A stretch of DNA of 64,000 nucleotides from an uncultured Nitrospirales bacterium (GTDB lineage: Bacteria; Nitrospirota; Nitrospiria; Nitrospirales; UBA8639). Below the pieces are notes generated by a model. It saw only the letters and a program-made list of their open reading frames with translations. It did no database searches and was not told where the DNA came from. Location: assembly GCA_958295805.1 (NCBI GenBank), contig OY282373.1:281001-345000 (forward strand), in the 5' to 3' direction. The position numbers and the translations under genes were made by a program. Positions 32,750 to 60,128 of this stretch are shown here, in pieces. Positions within the stretch are counted from its first letter, which is position 1. Every line of letters begins with the position of its first letter.

Positions 32750-33480
32750 TGGATTCCCGCCTACGCGGGAATGACAGTGTAGCGTGGCCCGTGACTGGCT
32801 TATGGTCACCTGGCCCCCTCCAGCATTCCCCCAGCCTTCCCCCCTGTCATTCCCGCAGTTTTAAGCGGGAATCCAGCGTCGTTTTCTCCCCGCCCCACGG
32901 CAGCCCCACGGACCCAAGCCGCACCGGGTTCCGGCCTTCCCGAATTCCCTGCCCGTTCCCCTGGATTCCCGCCTACGCGGGAATGACAGAAATGGTCTCT
33001 TTCAGCCCTCCCCCTCAAATGGTCCTTCGTCACCTGCCCCTCCATCCTCCCGGCAGGTGTAAGCGGGAATCTAGAGCCCTCCCCTCTGTCATTCCCGCAG
33101 TTTTAAGCGGGAATCCAGCGTCGTTCTCCCTCCGCCCCACGGCAGCCACACGGACCCCGGCCAGACCGGGTTCCGGCCTTCCCGAATTCCCTGCCCGTTC
33201 CCCTGGATTCCCGCCTACGCGGGAATGACAGAAATGGTCTCTTTCAGCCCTCCCCCTCAAATGGTACTTCGTCACCTGCCCCTCCATCCTCCCGGCAGGT
33301 GTAAGCGGGAATCTAGAGCCCTCCCCTCTGTCATTCCCGCAGTTTTAAGCGGGAATCCAGCGTCGTTCTCCCTCCGCCCCACGGCAGCCCCACGTACCCC
33401 GGCCAGAACGGGTTCCGGCCCTCCCGAATTCCCTGCCCGTTCCCCTGGATTTCCGCCTACGCGGGAATGACAGATTAACT
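32750..33480. repeat. 242-bp tandem repeat, about 2.7 copies, built from dRS3-like palindromes
   Basis: The main array covers about 32818-33478 with a period of 242 bases (CTGTCATTCCCGCAG at 32844 and 33086; CTAGAGCCCT at 33071 and 33313). Each unit has two inverted elements. One is ATTCCC-GCAGTTTTAAGC-GGGAAT. The other is ATTCCC-GCCTACGC-GGGAAT, which matches the dRS3 formula known from Neisseria (ATTCCC-N8-GGGAAT). An isolated copy lies at 32753 and degenerate ones near 33450 and 33510. Open frames here are repeat translations and not genes. The rest of the gap to 33664 appears empty. Confidence 0.9.
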
Positions 33481-51247: not shown

Positions 51248-52900
51248 TCACCCCTTTTGGAAGTGGAGAATGCCCCAGGAGAGATGGCCGTTCGTCCCTC
51301 CATTGATCCAGTATTGCAGACCGGTCTTCATCCGTTCGATGTAGTCCTCGCTACAGACTTTCAGCAAATTCCATTGATTGGCGTGAACTTCTTCAAGGAC
51401 TCGTGCGTAATGGCGATGCAACTGTTCCGAGAGGTCAAAAATTTCAAGCTCTTTGAATCCCAAATCCAAGAGCATCTCTTTATAGAGCGCGACGGATCCC
51501 AGCGAGTCCAGGTGAATGCGATCCAGGATGGGTTGCAAGGCGTCCTTTGGGCATTGGTCGCTCTGCATCGGATCGGTAAAAATAAACTGTCCTCCCTGGG
51601 CGAGCACGCGTTTGACTTCTTTGAACACTTTCGCCCGGTCCCCACTGTGCAAAATGGCATCCTGTGACCACACCACGTCCACGCTCTCGTTCGGCGTAGG
51701 AATCTCTTCAAAATTTCCGTCAACCACGTTCACAACCAGAGAGTAATTGGATCTGGCGTTGAGTTCACGGTTTCTGGCGTTTTGCGTTTCGCTCAAATTC
51801 AAACAACTCACGTGGCAGCCGTAATGCTCAATCAGGTATCGGGCCGACCCGCCGTACCCCGAGCCGATATCCAGCACCCGCGTGGTGGGCCCAAGATTGT
51901 TGACCATTGAGGCCATTTTCATGACCGTTTTGCGGCTGGCGTCGAAAATCGTATCCGTATCGTGTTCATAAAGTCCGATGTGAATATCTTCCCCGCCCCA
52001 GACCGTGGCATAAAATCGATCGGCATCATTGCTGTTGTAATAGCTTCGGGCGGTTTCGACGGGCTGTGAATAATTGATCCCCACGGGAACCTTGATTGCC
52101 CGTTCTTCGTTCTTATAGAGCTTTTCAGCCACGTGGATAAAGAAATCCGGATCTTCGATTCGATGGGTCTCCTGGAAGTCCGCATAGGTTTTGACCTGCT
52201 GAAAGCCCACTTCTCCCATGAGTTTTCTGACGTAATCCTTCCGGAGGGGGAACATGTTCAGGTGATATTCCGAGTTGTCCGGGAATTGATACCGGAATCG
52301 GGCCAAGCCTTCATCCACGTATTCGGGCTCGGCGCGGACATTGTCCCCGCAGTAGTAATAGACGTGTTTTGAGGTGAATCCGTTATCCAGGATGCCGTCG
52401 TAATTCCGTTGATCCAGGATCAACACCCCGTCGTGGTGCAGAACCGAATAAAATTCAGCGAGAGCTTTCCGGCGGTCCTGTTCGGAAAACAGGTGCGTCA
52501 ACGAGTTCCCCAGGCAGATGACGGCGTCATATTGGGTGTGAATGTCTCGGCTCAGCCACCGCCAGTCAGCATGGAGGGTCTTCATGATAAAGCCGGCCCG
52601 TTTGGCGTTTTCAAAGGCCTGCACCAGCATTTCAGGGCTGCCGTCCGCACTGGTCACGTCGAATCCGGCTTTCAGGAGCCGAATCGAGTGGAATCCCGTT
52701 CCGGCCGCCACGTCCAGGACCCGTTGGACCCCACGTTCTTTGAGAATATTGATGAAAAAGTCTCCTTCGCTGGCAGCCCGTGCGTCCCAGTCGATGAGTT
52801 CATCCCACTTTCGGACAAAGCTATGGACGTATTCTCGTTTATATTGGTCGGTTTTGCGTTGGGCAATCGGATTATCACCGTACAACTGTTCTGTGCCCAT
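51248..52900 (-). CDS. Glycine/sarcosine and dimethylglycine N-methyltransferase fusion (betaine synthesis)
   Basis: Two SAM-methyltransferase domains in one 550-residue chain. The first (about 1-270) has VLDVAAGTGFHSIRLLKAGF and resembles glycine/sarcosine N-methyltransferase (ERKTDQYKREYV-type start, FVRKWDELIDWDARA). The second (about 275-550) has RSYYNSNDADRFYATVWGGE, VLDIGSGYGGSARYLIEHYG and the sarcosine/dimethylglycine-methyltransferase end. Together they convert glycine to the osmoprotectant betaine in three SAM-dependent steps. Fusion of the two is known in Actinopolyspora halophila. No SAM-recycling gene is adjacent. Confidence 0.93.
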   Translation of the reverse strand: MGTEQLYGDNPIAQRKTDQYKREYVHSFVRKWDELIDWDARAASEGDFFINILKERGVQRVLDVAAGTGFHSIRLLKAGFDVTSADGSPEMLVQAFENAKRAGFIMKTLHADWRWLSRDIHTQYDAVICLGNSLTHLFSEQDRRKALAEFYSVLHHDGVLILDQRNYDGILDNGFTSKHVYYYCGDNVRAEPEYVDEGLARFRYQFPDNSEYHLNMFPLRKDYVRKLMGEVGFQQVKTYADFQETHRIEDPDFFIHVAEKLYKNEERAIKVPVGINYSQPVETARSYYNSNDADRFYATVWGGEDIHIGLYEHDTDTIFDASRKTVMKMASMVNNLGPTTRVLDIGSGYGGSARYLIEHYGCHVSCLNLSETQNARNRELNARSNYSLVVNVVDGNFEEIPTPNESVDVVWSQDAILHSGDRAKVFKEVKRVLAQGGQFIFTDPMQSDQCPKDALQPILDRIHLDSLGSVALYKEMLLDLGFKELEIFDLSEQLHRHYARVLEEVHANQWNLLKVCSEDYIERMKTGLQYWINGGTNGHLSWGILHFQKG

Positions 52901-53107
52901 GGTGCACCTCCTCGGCTGTAGGGCTCACGGTACCATTCCCCGTGCGAATCAACCTTCCCGGTATGACGTCTGGTTGAATGAAAAGCAGGAAAGGATCACT
53001 GAGTTTTCCCGACTCTAACGATTTGGGCCTGCCTGAGCAACCTTTGGTCATGTAATTCTCCGGCGGATTCATCGCTGCGGTTTGGCCCCTCGCTCCCCTC
53101 ACCCCAG

Positions 53108-53205
53108 CCCCTCTCCCAGCGGGAGAGGGGTTAGGCGGTGTCTTCCCTCTCCCAGGGGGAAAGGGGTTGGCCGGTGTTTTCCCTCTCCCTCTGGGAGAGG
53201 GTGAG
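53108..53205. repeat. CCCTCTCCC-type inverted repeats between porin and betaine genes
   Basis: CCCCTCTCCC-AGC-GGGAGAGGGG (53108-53130) is a perfect ten-base stem with a three-base loop. Two degenerate copies of the unit follow to about 53205. They may terminate transcription from the porin gene (minus strand), or be mobile repeats. The remainder of 52901-53539 holds no gene that I can support. Confidence 0.6.
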
Positions 53206-53539
53206 AGCTTGCCCCGGACATGATCCGGGGGTGAGGGAAATTCTCAAACTGAGACACGACCAACCTTCAATCTGCCCGACGGACCCCGACTCAATGGCTC
53301 CCGATGTTTCCGTTGTGCGGTCAGGACGACGGCGTTGACGATGCGCTTTCAGGATTCAGGCCATCGAATGTTTTTGTAACTACTTGATTGTAAAGAATTT
53401 TTAGAGTGTGTGGGCAGAGATTCGGAGCAGAGAGGCCGGAATCAGAGAGCGGGATGAGATGGGGGGCGTCAGCCCCCGGCGACAGATCACTCTGTGCCGG
53501 GGGACCGCGGGTCAGATGCAGAGATGGCCGGAGCCGTTC

Positions 53540-55045
53540 CTAAAAATAATACCCGAAGTTGACATTAAAACGTTGTTTCATGTCGTCACGGCCACTGGCC
53601 CCGTTGGCCGCGCCGGTATCATAGATGTTCCCGAAGTTATTAGGGTAGCTGCCGACAAAGATGTTGCCGGTGGACAATACCCAATCGGTATAAATATACC
53701 ACCCTCCCTTGGCCCAGGCAGCCCCGAGGGTCAACAACGAATTGTCGTTGAAGGCATTTCCCGCGTTGGGGATTTTGTCTCCCATTGGCACATGGGCCAG
53801 TTTCATGATGGAACTCCACTCGATATACGGCGTAATACTTTCAGGCTGAATGCTGGACAACAGGCTCGGCCATATTGCCGGCACGTCCAGGCCGTTGTAC
53901 CGAAGATTGACCGCGGGAATCCATCCCCTGGATGCCGTCAGCCAGGCAAAGTTATATCCACCCATCGGAATAAGGTCTCCGGTCCCCCATGGCGTATTAT
54001 CCGTAATGTCATACTCGTAGTATGTCATTTGTGAGTAGAACGTGAAATCGCCGATAGGGTTCTTCGTGTGCGCGGAAAAGGCATAGTGCTTGCCGTCGTC
54101 ATCAACACCACGGGTAGCATTTCCCTTCCTTCCATCCAGCATTCCGTACTGAATTGACGCGCCGAACTCTCCGATGTCCTCCACCGCGTAGATCGCCCGC
54201 AGGTTGAATTGATGCTGTTCCTGATAACCGCAATTGCAAGGGATGGACGGAGTCCCTTTCTTATAAGGCTGGCCAACCTTTTTCATCTCACCAACAGCTT
54301 CGCCAGCGTATCTCGCCGTCCCGTCGGACTCTACCATATAGTCCCACTTGGCCACATCATAGTCGTATCGGATGGCGTCCCGGGTGGTGCCTCCTTCCCC
54401 ATTGGGTTGGGCTTGAAGGAAGTAGGCCAGATCAAGCGTCAGGTTATCGAAGGTATTTGTCCACCTGATGCCCGTGTCCCTGTCGTCGGACAGCCCGACG
54501 TAAAAATGCTGGTCATAAAACCAACTGCTGGAAATTCCATAGGGTCCCGGTCCGAAAGGCACGCGCACGATCCCGGCCTTGAGCGTGCCGGCGTCACCGA
54601 ACTCGTATCCCAGCCACGCCCTGGACAGGGAACCGTATCCGGGGTCTTTCACATACCACCACCATCGGTATTCGAAGGACCCGATCACGTTGTCATAGGT
54701 GAAATCAACGTTCCCGCGGAGGGTATCAAACATAACCGCTCCGAAATTTCTGCCTCGACGGTCGTTCGGTTGGTAATCACCATAGATATAGCTTGCCCGT
54801 ATGGCCCCCCCGATGTTCAATTCTCTTTTTTTGGAATCCACAGGTTCAGCTTTTTGGGGCTCCGGCTCCACTCCCGTCTCCGTCGTGGCAAGTTCTTTTC
54901 GAGCCTCTGCCAGCTCTTTTTCCAATGCCTCAATGCGTTGTTGAATCTCCGACGCCGTATCAGCCAGAGCCGAAGGAGCAAAGAGTACGACGGCCATGCT
55001 CGCGGTCAGAATGGTCAGTTCTAGAGTCCTTCGATTCACAATCAT
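53540..55045 (-). CDS. Outer-membrane porin with N-terminal coiled coil
   Basis: The 501-residue protein has a signal peptide (ILTASMAVVLFAPSALADTA), a coiled-coil segment (EIQQRIEALEKELAEARKEL) and then a beta-barrel with alternating aromatic strands. It ends RFNVNFGYYF, with the C-terminal aromatic typical of barrel insertion. The overall type is like phosphate-selective or trimeric carbohydrate porins with an N-terminal stalk. The substrate is unknown. Its 5' side faces the 17-copy tandem repeat, so that array lies in or near its promoter. Confidence 0.87.
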   Translation of the reverse strand: MIVNRRTLELTILTASMAVVLFAPSALADTASEIQQRIEALEKELAEARKELATTETGVEPEPQKAEPVDSKKRELNIGGAIRASYIYGDYQPNDRRGRNFGAVMFDTLRGNVDFTYDNVIGSFEYRWWWYVKDPGYGSLSRAWLGYEFGDAGTLKAGIVRVPFGPGPYGISSSWFYDQHFYVGLSDDRDTGIRWTNTFDNLTLDLAYFLQAQPNGEGGTTRDAIRYDYDVAKWDYMVESDGTARYAGEAVGEMKKVGQPYKKGTPSIPCNCGYQEQHQFNLRAIYAVEDIGEFGASIQYGMLDGRKGNATRGVDDDGKHYAFSAHTKNPIGDFTFYSQMTYYEYDITDNTPWGTGDLIPMGGYNFAWLTASRGWIPAVNLRYNGLDVPAIWPSLLSSIQPESITPYIEWSSIMKLAHVPMGDKIPNAGNAFNDNSLLTLGAAWAKGGWYIYTDWVLSTGNIFVGSYPNNFGNIYDTGAANGASGRDDMKQRFNVNFGYYF

Positions 55046-55093
55046 TGCTTTGCTCCTTCTAAGAGTAAAGATGAATCACTTTCAATGACCATA

Positions 55094-55331
55094 AGTCAAT
55101 GACGAAAAGTCAATGACGAAAAGTCAATGACGAAAAGTCAATGACGAAAAGTCAATGACGAAAAGTCAATGACGAAAAGTCAATGACGAAAAGTCAATGA
55201 CGAAAAGTCAATGACGAAAAGTCAATGACGAAAAGTCAATGACGAAAAGTCAATGACGAAAAGTCAATGACGAAAAGTCAATGACGAAAAGTCAATGACG
55301 AAAAGTCAATGACGAAAAGTCAATGACGAAA
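55094..55331. repeat. 17 perfect copies of a 14-bp tandem repeat
   Basis: The unit AGTCAATGACGAAA repeats 17 times without a mismatch over 238 bases. Each unit contains GTCAATGAC, a palindrome of two GTCA/TGAC half-sites around one base. The array starts 48 bases beyond the porin ATG and ends 302 bases before the potA-like ATG, so it occupies the divergent promoter region. No short spacers separate the units, so it is not a CRISPR array. It could be a binding-site array or a copy-number-variable switch. Confidence 0.97.
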
Positions 55332-55633
55332 AAGTCCAACTTCAATATCATATTTATCTCATTTAGTAAAGTCATCCCTGAATTTTTCTTTGATTATCAG
55401 AGTGGCCACTGAGGAGACGTGGGATTGGAAAATGCAGGGGAAGAGCTTGGTAGGGCGGGCAAGCGGGGACGTTCGGCAGCGGTCTCCAGTGGATGTTGTC
55501 CTCAATCCGGCACAAGGGAAGTTGACACGATTCCTTCGCTGTGTCATTTATAGTCGTGGCGAGAAGAGATTCGCTCCCCCCTTGATCCCTCTCAACCTAT
55601 GACGGGACAAGGGGCTTGGGAAGGTGGAGAACG
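55332..55633. other. Leader between tandem repeat and ABC operon
   Basis: The first 70 bases are AT-rich and could hold a promoter for the ABC operon; no confident -35/-10 pair is assigned. A weak open frame at 55390-55602 has no family-like features and is not called. A GGTGGAG ribosome site lies at 55624-55630. Confidence 0.3.
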
Positions 55634-56722
55634 ATGAACGCTCATGATCCTCTGGTTCGCTTCGTCAATATCCAAAAGAGCTATGATGGGGAGACGCTTA
55701 TTGTCAAGGACCTCAATCTGAGCGTCGCAAAGGGTGAATTTCTGACCATGCTCGGACCATCAGGGTCCGGTAAAACGACGTGTCTGATGATGCTGGCTGG
55801 TTTCGAACCGGCCACCCACGGTGAGATCTATTTGGAGGATCAGCCGATTAATCGGGTGCCGCCGCACAAACGCGGCATCGGCATGGTGTTCCAGAACTAT
55901 GCGTTGTTCCCCCACATGACCGTTGCAGAAAATCTCGCCTTTCCCCTGGACGTGCGGGGCATGAGCAAGTCGGAAAAGATGCAACGGGTCAAGCGCGCCC
56001 TGGATATGGTGCAACTGGGGGAGTTCGGTGACCGGCGGCCGGTGCAGCTCTCCGGCGGCCAGCAACAGCGCGTGGCGGTGGCGCGGTCCCTGGTCTTCGA
56101 TCCCGCTCTGGTGTTGATGGACGAGCCCTTGGGAGCCCTTGACAAGAATCTGCGCGAACAGATGCAATATGAAATCAAGTCCATTCACGAAAATCTCGGG
56201 ATCACGGTGGTCTACGTCACCCACGACCAGAGTGAAGCCTTGACGTTGTCCAACCGCATCGCGGTGTTCGACGACGGCGTCATTCAGCAGTGCGCCCCGC
56301 CGGACATGCTGTACGAAGAACCCGAAAATGCGTTCGTCGCCAACTTTATCGGTGAAAACAATCGACTGATGGGCACCGTGGCCGAAGACAACGGCAACAC
56401 CGTCAAGGTGAACGTCAACAACGGCCACGTCGTTGAGGCGAAAAAGGTCAAGGTGGAGGGGGTCGGCTCGCCGTCCACGTTGTCGTTGCGACCGGAGCGC
56501 GTGGTCGTGGCTCCCGAGCCGGCCAGCTTGCCGAACATCTTCCTGGCGAAGACCGAAGAGTTGATCTATCTGGGCGATCATATCCGTACAAGGTTTTCTG
56601 TGTGCGGAACGGATGATTTTGTCGTCAAGATTCCGAATTCTTCCGTCCACGTTTGTCTCTCTGAGGGAGACGAAGTGAACGTCGGGTGGAAGGTAGAAGA
56701 TTGTCGGGCGTTGGATGCGTGA
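55634..56722 (+). CDS. potA: ABC transporter ATP-binding protein, PotA type
   Basis: Walker [12 protein letters not shown]-loop [12 protein letters not shown], signature [15 protein letters not shown], Walker [12 protein letters not shown] and the switch His in [10 protein letters not shown] are all present. A C-terminal TOBE domain (about 280-360) places it with spermidine/putrescine or iron-type importers. The ATG at 55634 follows GGTGGAG. It heads a four-gene operon with substrate-binding and two permease genes. The potA symbol is by class; the ligand is not proven. Confidence 0.9.
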
Positions 56723-56796: not shown

Positions 56797-57882
56797 ATGA
56801 TGCACAATTATTTACGCAACGCCTTCTTATGCGCCGCCGTTGTCGTGGGAACGTTGGGCACCGCTCAAGCCGAGGTCAACATGGTGACGTGGGGAGGTGC
56901 CTACGCCGTGTCGCAACAGAAGGCCTACGGCGACACGTGGAAGGGAGACAAGATCAATTGGATCAACTACAACGGCGGTCTCGGCGAGATTCGCACACAG
57001 GTTGAATCCGGCGCCGTGACGTGGGACGTCGTTGACGTGCTGCCCGATCAAGCCCGCACGGGTTGTGATGAAGGCTTATTCGAGCCGCTTGATCGCGGCA
57101 TGTTCGTTCCCGCCCCGGACGGGACGCCGATGGATCAAGACACCATGAGGGCGTTGCCGAACGACTGCGTGGTGCCGAATATCTTCTGGTCGTACCTCGC
57201 GTTCTATGAGGAAGGAACGTTCAAGGGCGAGCAACCGTCAACCATTGCGGATTTCTTCGACGTGAAGAAGTTCCCGGGCAAACGCGGCATTCATACCTGG
57301 CCCAATGCGTTGATTGAAATGGCGCTGTTGGCCGACGGCGTTCCCGTTGACCAGATTTATGAAGTCATGAGCACCGAGAAAGGCATTGATCGCGCGTTTG
57401 CCAAACTGGATCAGATTAAGGAGCACGCAGTGTTCTGGTCGTCCGGCTCGAAACCCATCGAACTCGTCAAGAGCGGCGAAACGTCGATGTCCTTGGCCTA
57501 CAACGGCCGGGTCGGTGCCGCGATCCTGAGCCAAGGCGAAAAGTTGGTGCCGATCTGGGATGGACAGGTGCTGGAAGAACAATGGTTTACGCTGATGAAA
57601 GGAGCCCCGAATGCCGAGGCGGCCAAGAAGTTCCTCGTCCATATCTCTGCTCCCCAACAGCAGGCCGGCCAAGCCAAGTGGATCAACTATGGCCCGATGC
57701 GGAAGTCCGCCATGGAGATTATCAAAGCCAATGAGCCATGGCATAACACCGGCGTCAACGTCATGCCCCACATGCCGAATCGGGACGACGTTCTGGCGAC
57801 CTCCATTTTCTCCAACGCGGCTTGGTGGGCCGACTACGGTGGAGAGCTCAAAGAACGCTATACGGCATGGATGAGCCAATAA
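56797..57882 (+). CDS. ABC transporter substrate-binding protein, PotD/PotF type
   Basis: A signal peptide (LRNAFLCAAVVVGTLGTAQA) precedes a family-1 solute-binding protein: VNMVTWGGAYAVSQQKAYGD, then WDVVDVLPDQARTGCDEGLF, and TLMKGAPNAEAAKKFLVHIS. The ATG at 56797 has a clear AAGGAG site. The closest class is spermidine/putrescine-binding-like, but ligand residues were not checked, and betaine or another organic cation cannot be ruled out. Confidence 0.88.
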   Translation: MMHNYLRNAFLCAAVVVGTLGTAQAEVNMVTWGGAYAVSQQKAYGDTWKGDKINWINYNGGLGEIRTQVESGAVTWDVVDVLPDQARTGCDEGLFEPLDRGMFVPAPDGTPMDQDTMRALPNDCVVPNIFWSYLAFYEEGTFKGEQPSTIADFFDVKKFPGKRGIHTWPNALIEMALLADGVPVDQIYEVMSTEKGIDRAFAKLDQIKEHAVFWSSGSKPIELVKSGETSMSLAYNGRVGAAILSQGEKLVPIWDGQVLEEQWFTLMKGAPNAEAAKKFLVHISAPQQQAGQAKWINYGPMRKSAMEIIKANEPWHNTGVNVMPHMPNRDDVLATSIFSNAAWWADYGGELKERYTAWMSQ

Positions 57883-57971
57883 TCCGATAACCTGAACGGC
57901 TGATGGCGGGGCTGGTTTTCACAGACCAGTCCCGCCTTCCACCTTCGCCGTTCCTCAATAACGTTTCAACG

Positions 57972-59234
57972 ATGCCCACGGCTTCCGCCAACCCCGCCGG
58001 TCCCATCCTGACCGTTGACGGGACCCCCTTGAAAACCAGCCTGGAGCGTTCCCTGAAGCTCAGCAAACTCCGGGCCGTCGGGCTGGTCTTTCCACCTCTG
58101 GTGTTTCTGATTTTCCTCTTTGTCATTCCCATCGGGAGTTTGTTGACGCGCAGCGTTGACGATAGTTTGAGCAATAAGGTGTTGCCGAGGACCCTGGCGG
58201 CATTCGAGCGGTGGGATAAGACTTCGGAACCCGATGAGGCCATGTTCGAGGCCCTCTATCTGGACATGAAGGCGGCGGAAAAGCTTGATCTCAGCAAACT
58301 CGGCACCCGCATGAATTACGAAAAATCCGGATGGCGCAGCCTGGTCAAAATTACGACGCGTGGGTTGAAACGCATTGAAGGGCCGCCGTACAAGCCGGCG
58401 ATGCTGAAGCTCAACAAGCGATGGGGAGATATCGCGTTCTGGCAATCGCTCGGCGCGATGAAAGACCCTGTCACCTTTGGATATTACCTGAACGCCGTCG
58501 ATCTCAAATATGATGGAAACAAGAACGTCATGCGGGTCAACAAACACCGCAGGATTTATCAGTTACTGTGGTGGCGCACGCTCCTGGTGAGCACGATTGT
58601 CACCATCGGGTGTCTTATCCTGGCCTATCCGGTGGCCCACCTGTTGGCGACCCTGCCGCTTCGGATATCCAACCTGTTGATGATCTGCGTGCTGATGCCG
58701 TTCTGGACGTCGCTGCTGGTGCGTATCGTGGCCTGGATGATCATGCTGCAACAGAACGGGGTCATCAATGATTCGCTGGTGTCCCTGGGTCTTCTCCACG
58801 ACGACAACCGGTTGGAGATGATGTACAACTTCACCGGCACGGTCATCGTCATGATTCAGATTCTCCTGCCGTTCATGATTCTGCCGATTTACAGCGTGAT
58901 GAAAACCATTCCGCCGAGCTACATGAAGGCGGCTCAGAATCTGGGCGCCACGCCGGCTCTGGCTTTTCTCAAGGTTTATCTGCCGCAAACGATTCCCGGC
59001 GTCGGGGCGGGATGTATTCTGGTGTTCATTGTCGCCATCGGGTACTACATCACGCCCGAACTGGTCGGCGGCAAAGACGGGCGATTAATCGGCAACCTCA
59101 TCGCCCATCACATGCAGCACTCACTGAACTGGGGGCTGGCTGCGGCCATGGGGGCGACCCTGTTGGCCGCGATCCTTATCCTGTATTGGGTCTATGATAA
59201 GTTGATCGGCGTCGATAACATGAAGATGGGTTGA
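57972..59234 (+). CDS. ABC transporter permease, PotB type
   Basis: Six hydrophobic segments with the EAA-type loop YMKAAQNLGATPALAFLKVY followed by LPQTIPG. A large soluble insert (about 60-190) lies between the first helix and the rest, longer than in E. coli PotB. The ATG at 57972 (MPTASANPAG) is preferred to the ATG at 57903. It lies 4 bases before the second permease start. Confidence 0.88.
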   Translation: MPTASANPAGPILTVDGTPLKTSLERSLKLSKLRAVGLVFPPLVFLIFLFVIPIGSLLTRSVDDSLSNKVLPRTLAAFERWDKTSEPDEAMFEALYLDMKAAEKLDLSKLGTRMNYEKSGWRSLVKITTRGLKRIEGPPYKPAMLKLNKRWGDIAFWQSLGAMKDPVTFGYYLNAVDLKYDGNKNVMRVNKHRRIYQLLWWRTLLVSTIVTIGCLILAYPVAHLLATLPLRISNLLMICVLMPFWTSLLVRIVAWMIMLQQNGVINDSLVSLGLLHDDNRLEMMYNFTGTVIVMIQILLPFMILPIYSVMKTIPPSYMKAAQNLGATPALAFLKVYLPQTIPGVGAGCILVFIVAIGYYITPELVGGKDGRLIGNLIAHHMQHSLNWGLAAAMGATLLAAILILYWVYDKLIGVDNMKMG

Positions 59235-59237
59235 CAC

Positions 59238-60128
59238 GTGGGACTTCCGGTCTATGCCACCCCCGGCCAGCGAATCTGGCACTACTCCTACTTGGCGTTC
59301 TGTGCGCTGGTGCTGTTTTTTCTGGTTTCACCGTTGATCGTTGTCATTCCGCTGTCGTTCAATGCGTCGCCCTTTTTGCACTTTACTCAGGACATGCTGG
59401 CGCTTGACCCGAAAGGGTACTCCACGCTCTGGTATAAATCCCTGTTCGGCATGTGCGACGCGGAAGAGGCTTCGCTGTGGACTTCGTGTACGGACAAGTG
59501 GAAAGTGGGGACCATCAACAGTTTCATTATCGCCATCGCAGCGACGGGACTCGCCACCACGCTTGGAACGCTCGCGGCCCTGGGCTTGAGTCGGGAGCAC
59601 GTGCCCTTTCGTCGAACCATCATGGCCGTGATGATTTCCCCGCTTATCGTGCCGTTCGTCATCACGGCGTCGGGCATGTTCTTTTTCTTCGCCAAGGTCA
59701 ATCTGGTCTCGACGATGTCCGGAATCGTGTTGGCCCATACGATTCTGGGGCTTCCGTTCGTCGTGATTACCGTGACCTCGACGCTGGTCGGGTTCGACAA
59801 TAACCTGATGAAGGCGGCGGCAAACCTTGGCGGAACCCCATTCTATAATTTTTTCAAGATCCAAATGCCTCTGATTGCGCCGGGCGTCATCTCCGGAGCC
59901 TTGTTTGCGTTTATCACCTCATTCGACGAGGTCGTGATTGTCCTGTTCGTCGGTGGACCCGATCAATATACGCTGCCGCGACAGATGTGGTCAGGGCTGC
60001 GTGAAGAAATCAGTCCGACGATTCTTGCCGCGGCCACGATTCTCGTGTTGTTGTCGATCGTGTTATTGACGACGCTCGAGTTGTTGCGCCGACGCAACGA
60101 ACGCCTGCGCGGCATCTCGCCGGCGTAG
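59238..60128 (+). CDS. ABC transporter permease, PotC type
   Basis: The 296-residue protein starts at a GTG three bases after the previous stop. Hydrophobic segments surround the loop LMKAAANLGGTPFYNFFKIQ followed by MPLIAPG, the permease EAA motif. The first periplasmic loop is extended (MCDAEEASLWTSCTDKWKVG). It is the last gene of the four-gene importer operon. Confidence 0.9.
   Translation: MGLPVYATPGQRIWHYSYLAFCALVLFFLVSPLIVVIPLSFNASPFLHFTQDMLALDPKGYSTLWYKSLFGMCDAEEASLWTSCTDKWKVGTINSFIIAIAATGLATTLGTLAALGLSREHVPFRRTIMAVMISPLIVPFVITASGMFFFFAKVNLVSTMSGIVLAHTILGLPFVVITVTSTLVGFDNNLMKAAANLGGTPFYNFFKIQMPLIAPGVISGALFAFITSFDEVVIVLFVGGPDQYTLPRQMWSGLREEISPTILAAATILVLLSIVLLTTLELLRRRNERLRGISPA

Follow-up and report, generated by a model that had tools for sequence, protein, structure and literature searches.

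The window analysed here, a stretch of 64,000 nucleotides from the genome of an uncultured Nitrospirales bacterium (a single contig of 2,904,372 bases, 2.90 Mb), contains a perfect 14-bp tandem array in a 588-bp intergenic gap. A porin-like gene starts on one side of the gap, on the minus strand (ATG at 55045), and a PotA-like operon starts on the other, on the plus strand (ATG at 55634). The features of the region, in window coordinates, are the following:

53540–55045, minus strand: putative porin-like outer-membrane protein of 501 aa, with a signal-like start, a short coiled coil and a C-terminal YYF
55046–55081, minus strand: spacer of 36 nt between the array and the porin-like start codon, with the Shine-Dalgarno sequence AAGGAG
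55082–55332, no strand: 14-bp tandem array of 18 units headed by TCAATGAC, of which 17 are perfect AGTCAATGACGAAA (55094–55331)
55082–55095, no strand: variant terminal unit TCAATGACCATAAG on the porin side of the array
55347–55375, minus strand: candidate promoter of the porin-like gene, ATGACT-17-TATGAT, on the far side of the array, a weak prediction
55523–55570, plus strand: pot promoter-like block TTGACAC...CATTTA..GTCGTGGC, similar in G004 and G005 and partly so in G001 and G011
55634–56722, plus strand: PotA-like ABC ATPase, by family match
56797–57882, plus strand: extracellular solute-binding protein, SBP_bac_8, by family match
57903–59234, plus strand: PotB-like ABC permease, by family match
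59238–60128, plus strand: PotC-like ABC permease, by family match

The ATPase passes the NCBIfam polyamine model TIGR01187 (369.3 bits against a cut-off of 355.6), and the PotB- and PotC-like permeases score under their equivalog cut-offs. At E ≤ 0.001 the porin-like protein had no match in Pfam or NCBIfam; among Pfam matches at E up to 5 the best was Sugarporin_N (E 0.13). Its matches in the PDB were weak and lay in the coiled-coil region only, and its structure model was unusable, with a mean pLDDT of 28.5. We infer the porin label from the signal-like start, the aromatic- and glycine-rich body and the terminal YYF. With that qualification on the porin, the ORF positions and family matches agree with the earlier note, which had placed the repeats between divergent porin and polyamine-type ABC genes. 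A search of 53000–56000 for RNA families returned a single match, to a miRNA family and below threshold. At 53109–53189, past the 3’ end of the porin-like gene, is a 36-bp tandem unit (CCCTCTCCCAGCGGGAAAGGGG..) in 2.2 copies. The gene is adjoined by another on the minus strand (51248–52900) for a protein with two methyltransferase domains, which we take to resemble glycine/sarcosine methyltransferases; an ORF in L006, apparently antisense to it, suggests that this neighbour is kept in G004.

An exact search found 17 back-to-back copies of AGTCAATGACGAAA at 55094–55331, or C1:336094–336331 in genome coordinates. The TRF call extends from 55082 to 55332, with a period of 14, 17.9 copies, 99% matches, no indels and the consensus unit TCAATGACGAAAAG. 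From 55082 to 55320 there is a TCAATGAC every 14 bp, 18 in all; the first unit has the spacer CATAA where the others have GAAAA, and the last continues into GAAAAAG. A GTCA-A-TGAC dyad lies inside every unit. Both the seventeen-fold perfect array and the GTCA-N-TGAC palindrome in each unit, as first described from the sequence, are thus borne out, and chance cannot account for a 14-mer perfectly repeated 17 times. The dyad alone is weak evidence, because ca. 10% of random 14-bp circular units carry one with 4-bp arms (calculated as ca. 14/256 for odd plus 14/256 for even dyads). A coding array is ruled out by stop codons in all six frames. On the plus strand the unit reads ATG ACG AAA AGT CAA TGA, so that 55082–55332 strings together mini-ORFs of five codons, each stop overlapping the next start in ATGA; this is probably accidental.

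The array stands apart within its genome. There is no further exact match to AGTCAATGACGAAA, and two matches with one mismatch, so that a dispersed family of the unit was rejected. A systematic 800-kb sample of the genome gave 17 TRF rows with a period of at most 30 and at least four copies, the window array included; it was the only one above 90% identity, the runner-up having 88%. Two stretches (L022, C1:1450001–1470000, and L029, C1:2465001–2485000) contain very large genes or regions with tandem periods of ca. 330–350 bp, in up to 37 copies. The unit was not found in collections of genome contigs and viral contigs, from which the window's own record may be absent. Of 14 genomes of the genus, only the source genome has a 14-bp array with a TGAC core; the one other such array among the 14 is a TGAC-N10 run of the TGACCCGTGGCCGG type at C1:2630714–2630773 in the same genome. 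A literature search under GGGAATGAC, ATTCCCGC, Nitrospira tandem repeats and odd/even hairpins found no paper on this locus among those listed.

Homologues of the porin-like protein were sought in 59 genomes, including the source genome and 13 other members of the genus, and were found in six: the source genome and five of the 13. All five of these congeners keep the divergent potA-like neighbour, across gaps of 135–280 bp; the gap in the source genome is 337 bp once the array is subtracted (588 less 251). The array was not found in any of the five by TRF down to a score of 30, and the intergenic region of the source genome had no match as DNA in the other 58 genomes. The TTGACAC..CATTTA block before potA, which begins about 190 bp from the end of the array, is common to G004 and G005, and only its second half is present in G001 and G011. 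Because five congeners keep the gene pair without the array, the array is either young or confined to its own lineage, and the locus does not depend on it for its existence. The perfect copies, and the absence from five of five congeners that share the gene pair, support a recent origin, one of the two options given in the earlier note, and point to a recent, local expansion. The copy number, seen in one genome, is plausibly prone to slippage.

The reading that we prefer, at a little short of an even chance, is that the array is a young, lineage-specific minisatellite in the leader of the porin mRNA, and that its copy number tunes the porin-like gene. Replication slippage would have expanded the array locally, within the 5’ flank of that gene. 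The leader would run from an upstream promoter, with a candidate near 55347–55375, through the array to the Shine-Dalgarno sequence; if that promoter is used, the whole array lies inside the leader. The candidate is weak, because the two promoter-type sites found in the region hardly exceed chance (0.7 ± 0.9 expected), and we regard the array as probably transcribed. In the RNA, pairs of units would form hairpins of the form GUCAUUGAC-UUUUC-GUCAUUGAC, one per 28 nt. The predicted folding energy of the leader is −99.1 kcal/mol, against −64.4 ± 4.4 in 100 shuffles (z −7.9), a strength that is nearly guaranteed because the dyad is repeated. Gain or loss of a unit would alter the length and structure of the leader and in this way the level of the porin-like protein. 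The divergent pot operon would be little affected by the number of units: the porin side of the array is 37 nt from the ATG, and ca. 190 bp lie between the array and the block before potA that relatives share.

Repeats in comparable positions are known from other bacteria, and the array most plausibly works like those of hmw1A and uspA2 and the TAACTGA repeats. For hmw1A of Haemophilus influenzae, a functional promoter, P2, is reported upstream of a heptamer array that transcripts carry in their leader; more 7-bp repeats give less expression, by a mechanism described there as not settled (PMC8262952). Like the repeats of hmw1A and hmw2A, the array is perfect and tandem, and it precedes what is probably a surface protein gene, in a predicted leader. 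In those genes the unit is 7 bp and both variation and an effect on expression are demonstrated, whereas here the unit has 14 bp and contains a dyad, and variation and effect are predictions. In uspA2 of Moraxella catarrhalis, 6–23 copies of AGAT in the leader alter expression (Attia and Hansen 2006, cited in PMC4679880). In that system the repeats lie within the 5’ leader of the mRNA for a surface protein, a position that here is predicted; it differs in having a tetranucleotide unit and a shown effect on expression, and it belongs to another phylum. In Beggiatoaceae, Cyanobacteria and Bacteroidetes, TAACTGA repeats are found immediately 5’ of start codons, and a translational role has been proposed for them (PMC4679880). 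They too are short direct repeats close upstream of a start codon; they occur, however, at many loci per genome, with a shared heptamer and no predicted structure, whereas the 14-bp unit occurs here at one locus and has strong predicted hairpins. Assignment to the TAACTGA class was rejected, as the heptamer TAACTGA does not occur in the array of TCAATGACGAAAAG units. In sabA of Helicobacter pylori the length of an intergenic T-tract tunes a surface protein gene; this differs in being a mononucleotide tract that acts at the promoter, through the binding of RNA polymerase (PMC4081817). By anatomy alone, the array would be a member of the hmw1A/uspA2 type of leader repeat, a known arrangement in a new place.

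The alternative with the best prospects, somewhat improbable yet a serious contender, is a neutral minisatellite, made by slippage, unselected, and with a copy number to which neither gene responds. Each of the five congeners that have the gene pair lacks the array, which may therefore be without any effect, and the 17 TRF rows in 800 kb (the window array included) show that the genome has other tandem arrays. The distance of only 37 nt from a start codon speaks against neutrality. So does the homogeneity of the array, 99% against at most 88% in the other sampled arrays, although recency alone could explain this.

The earlier note had proposed that a dimeric regulator binding the dyads tunes the porin and the importer together. 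That the array is a set of operators for a dimeric, GTCANTGAC-recognising regulator of both genes now appears very unlikely, even with a perfect GTCA-A-TGAC dyad in every unit. Joint tuning fits poorly with an array that is 37 nt from the porin-like gene and ca. 190 bp from the potA block. Genome-wide, GTCANTGAC has 110 forward matches; without the 17 in the array 93 are left, where the reversed control pattern has 12. The search for the dyad at other promoters, which the earlier note had called for, went against a regulon: in the 800-kb sample, 25 of the 29 sites outside the array are in ORFs and four are noncoding, with ORFs of at least 100 aa called mechanically, which overcalls coding sequence. 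The raw excess of 93 over 12 thus comes mostly from ORFs, and a GTCANTGAC regulon was rejected. The four noncoding sites compare with a mean of 1.5 for palindromes; 18 of the 256 palindromes of the same shape are commoner in noncoding DNA, and eight, GTCANTGAC included, tie. By these counts there is a slight excess and no regulon. The near-absence of AGTCAATGACGAAA elsewhere in the genome and the lack of the array in congeners also argue against operators.

The genus also carries many hairpin elements that end in ATGAC and merit separate study. They consist of GGATTCCCGC-loop-GCGGGAATGAC, or of AGATTCTTCGCTTCGCTCAGAATGAC, and often have a one-sided tail of variable, purine-rich tandem units that each end in ATGAC. 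They are found genus-wide and are most abundant in G002 and the source genome; examples are at 32833–33474 of the window (minus strand, heads at 32846, 33088 and 33330) and in L125–L144. Matches to the triple pattern ATGACN{6,20}ATGACN{6,20}ATGAC, some of which are coding repeats, occur in all 14 genomes of the genus, at least two in each and most in G002 (142). In a sample of the phylum, 248 of 295 genomes have at least one match, mostly one to a few, with high counts in few genomes (e.g. 85 in G228 and 71 in G287). Ranked by clusters, ATGAC is 16th of 512 as a 5-mer core, and 43rd after correction for abundance (38 of the 40 stretches of the 800-kb sample, leaving out two giant-repeat stretches and the window array); it is not outstanding by this ranking. 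The single Y1_Tnp (PF01797) match in the genome (L145, G000 C1:2633184–2633519, 28.8 bits) is a possible partner of the hairpin elements.

That the window array is a degenerate tail of such an element is very unlikely. Its unit has ATGAC followed by purines, as in the element tails, and the triple pattern has 127 matches in the source genome (16 of them in the window array) against none for the reversed pattern. The shared ATGAC core is nevertheless expected on either strand of a 14-bp unit by chance in ca. 3% of cases (calculated). The linkers differ, being AT-rich in the array with TCA before ATGAC, and having GGA or AGA in the elements. In a survey of the source genome covering 21 stretches (20 plus L014), with matches up to 1.65 Mb only, 25 of 28 clusters start at a hairpin that ends in ATGAC and belongs to one of a few types, and the tails extend from one side only. 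The remaining three are a cluster with a variant head (judged by eye), one in an ORF, and the window array. No head of the form GGATTCCCG..CGGGAATGAC or AGATTCTTCGC..GCTCAGAATGAC was found at the start of the array, by regular expressions composed after inspection of the element sequences, and membership was dropped for want of the head.

A bolder reading, to which we give very little credence, makes the array an odd/even switch, in which the parity of the unit number opens or shuts the porin start codon. The units of the leader would pair two by two, and a leftover unit, GUCAUUG, would be free or not, depending on parity, to pair with CAAUGAU of the start region, so that one unit gained or lost would flip the start codon and give phase variation by hairpin register, without a frameshift or a regulator. 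With local folding at a span of 60, the predicted access to the start codon alternates between ca. 0.9 and 0.02 with parity; the effect is 0.87–0.89, and when 200 other gene starts were put behind the same array none gave one as large (three to five exceeded 0.5). It is also strong with a short CDS. Global folding shows the effect at CDS lengths of 20, 30 and 60 nt, more weakly at 45 nt, and no longer at 75 nt or more. The direction of the effect is reversed for a 60-nt CDS at a span of 100 and for 45–60 nt at a span of 150, and moving the 5’ end to 55440 shrinks the contrast to 0.71 against 0.55. The energy of the array-to-start duplex is unremarkable, 11 of 77 other starts being as low. The switch is kept as a bold reading and not preferred, because the effect vanishes or reverses under other folding settings.

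An assembly or consensus artefact is the least probable explanation: perfect tandem repeats can be miscounted, but a genome in one contig suggests long reads, which would easily span a 251-bp array, and the exact count is uncertain.

A neutral array would be a young minisatellite of the ordinary sort and could still serve as a useful strain marker. If the copy number of the leader array does tune the porin-like protein, the control by leader repeats that is known in host-adapted pathogens would also operate in an uncultured Nitrospirales bacterium, with a unit that is longer than the pathogen repeats and that folds.
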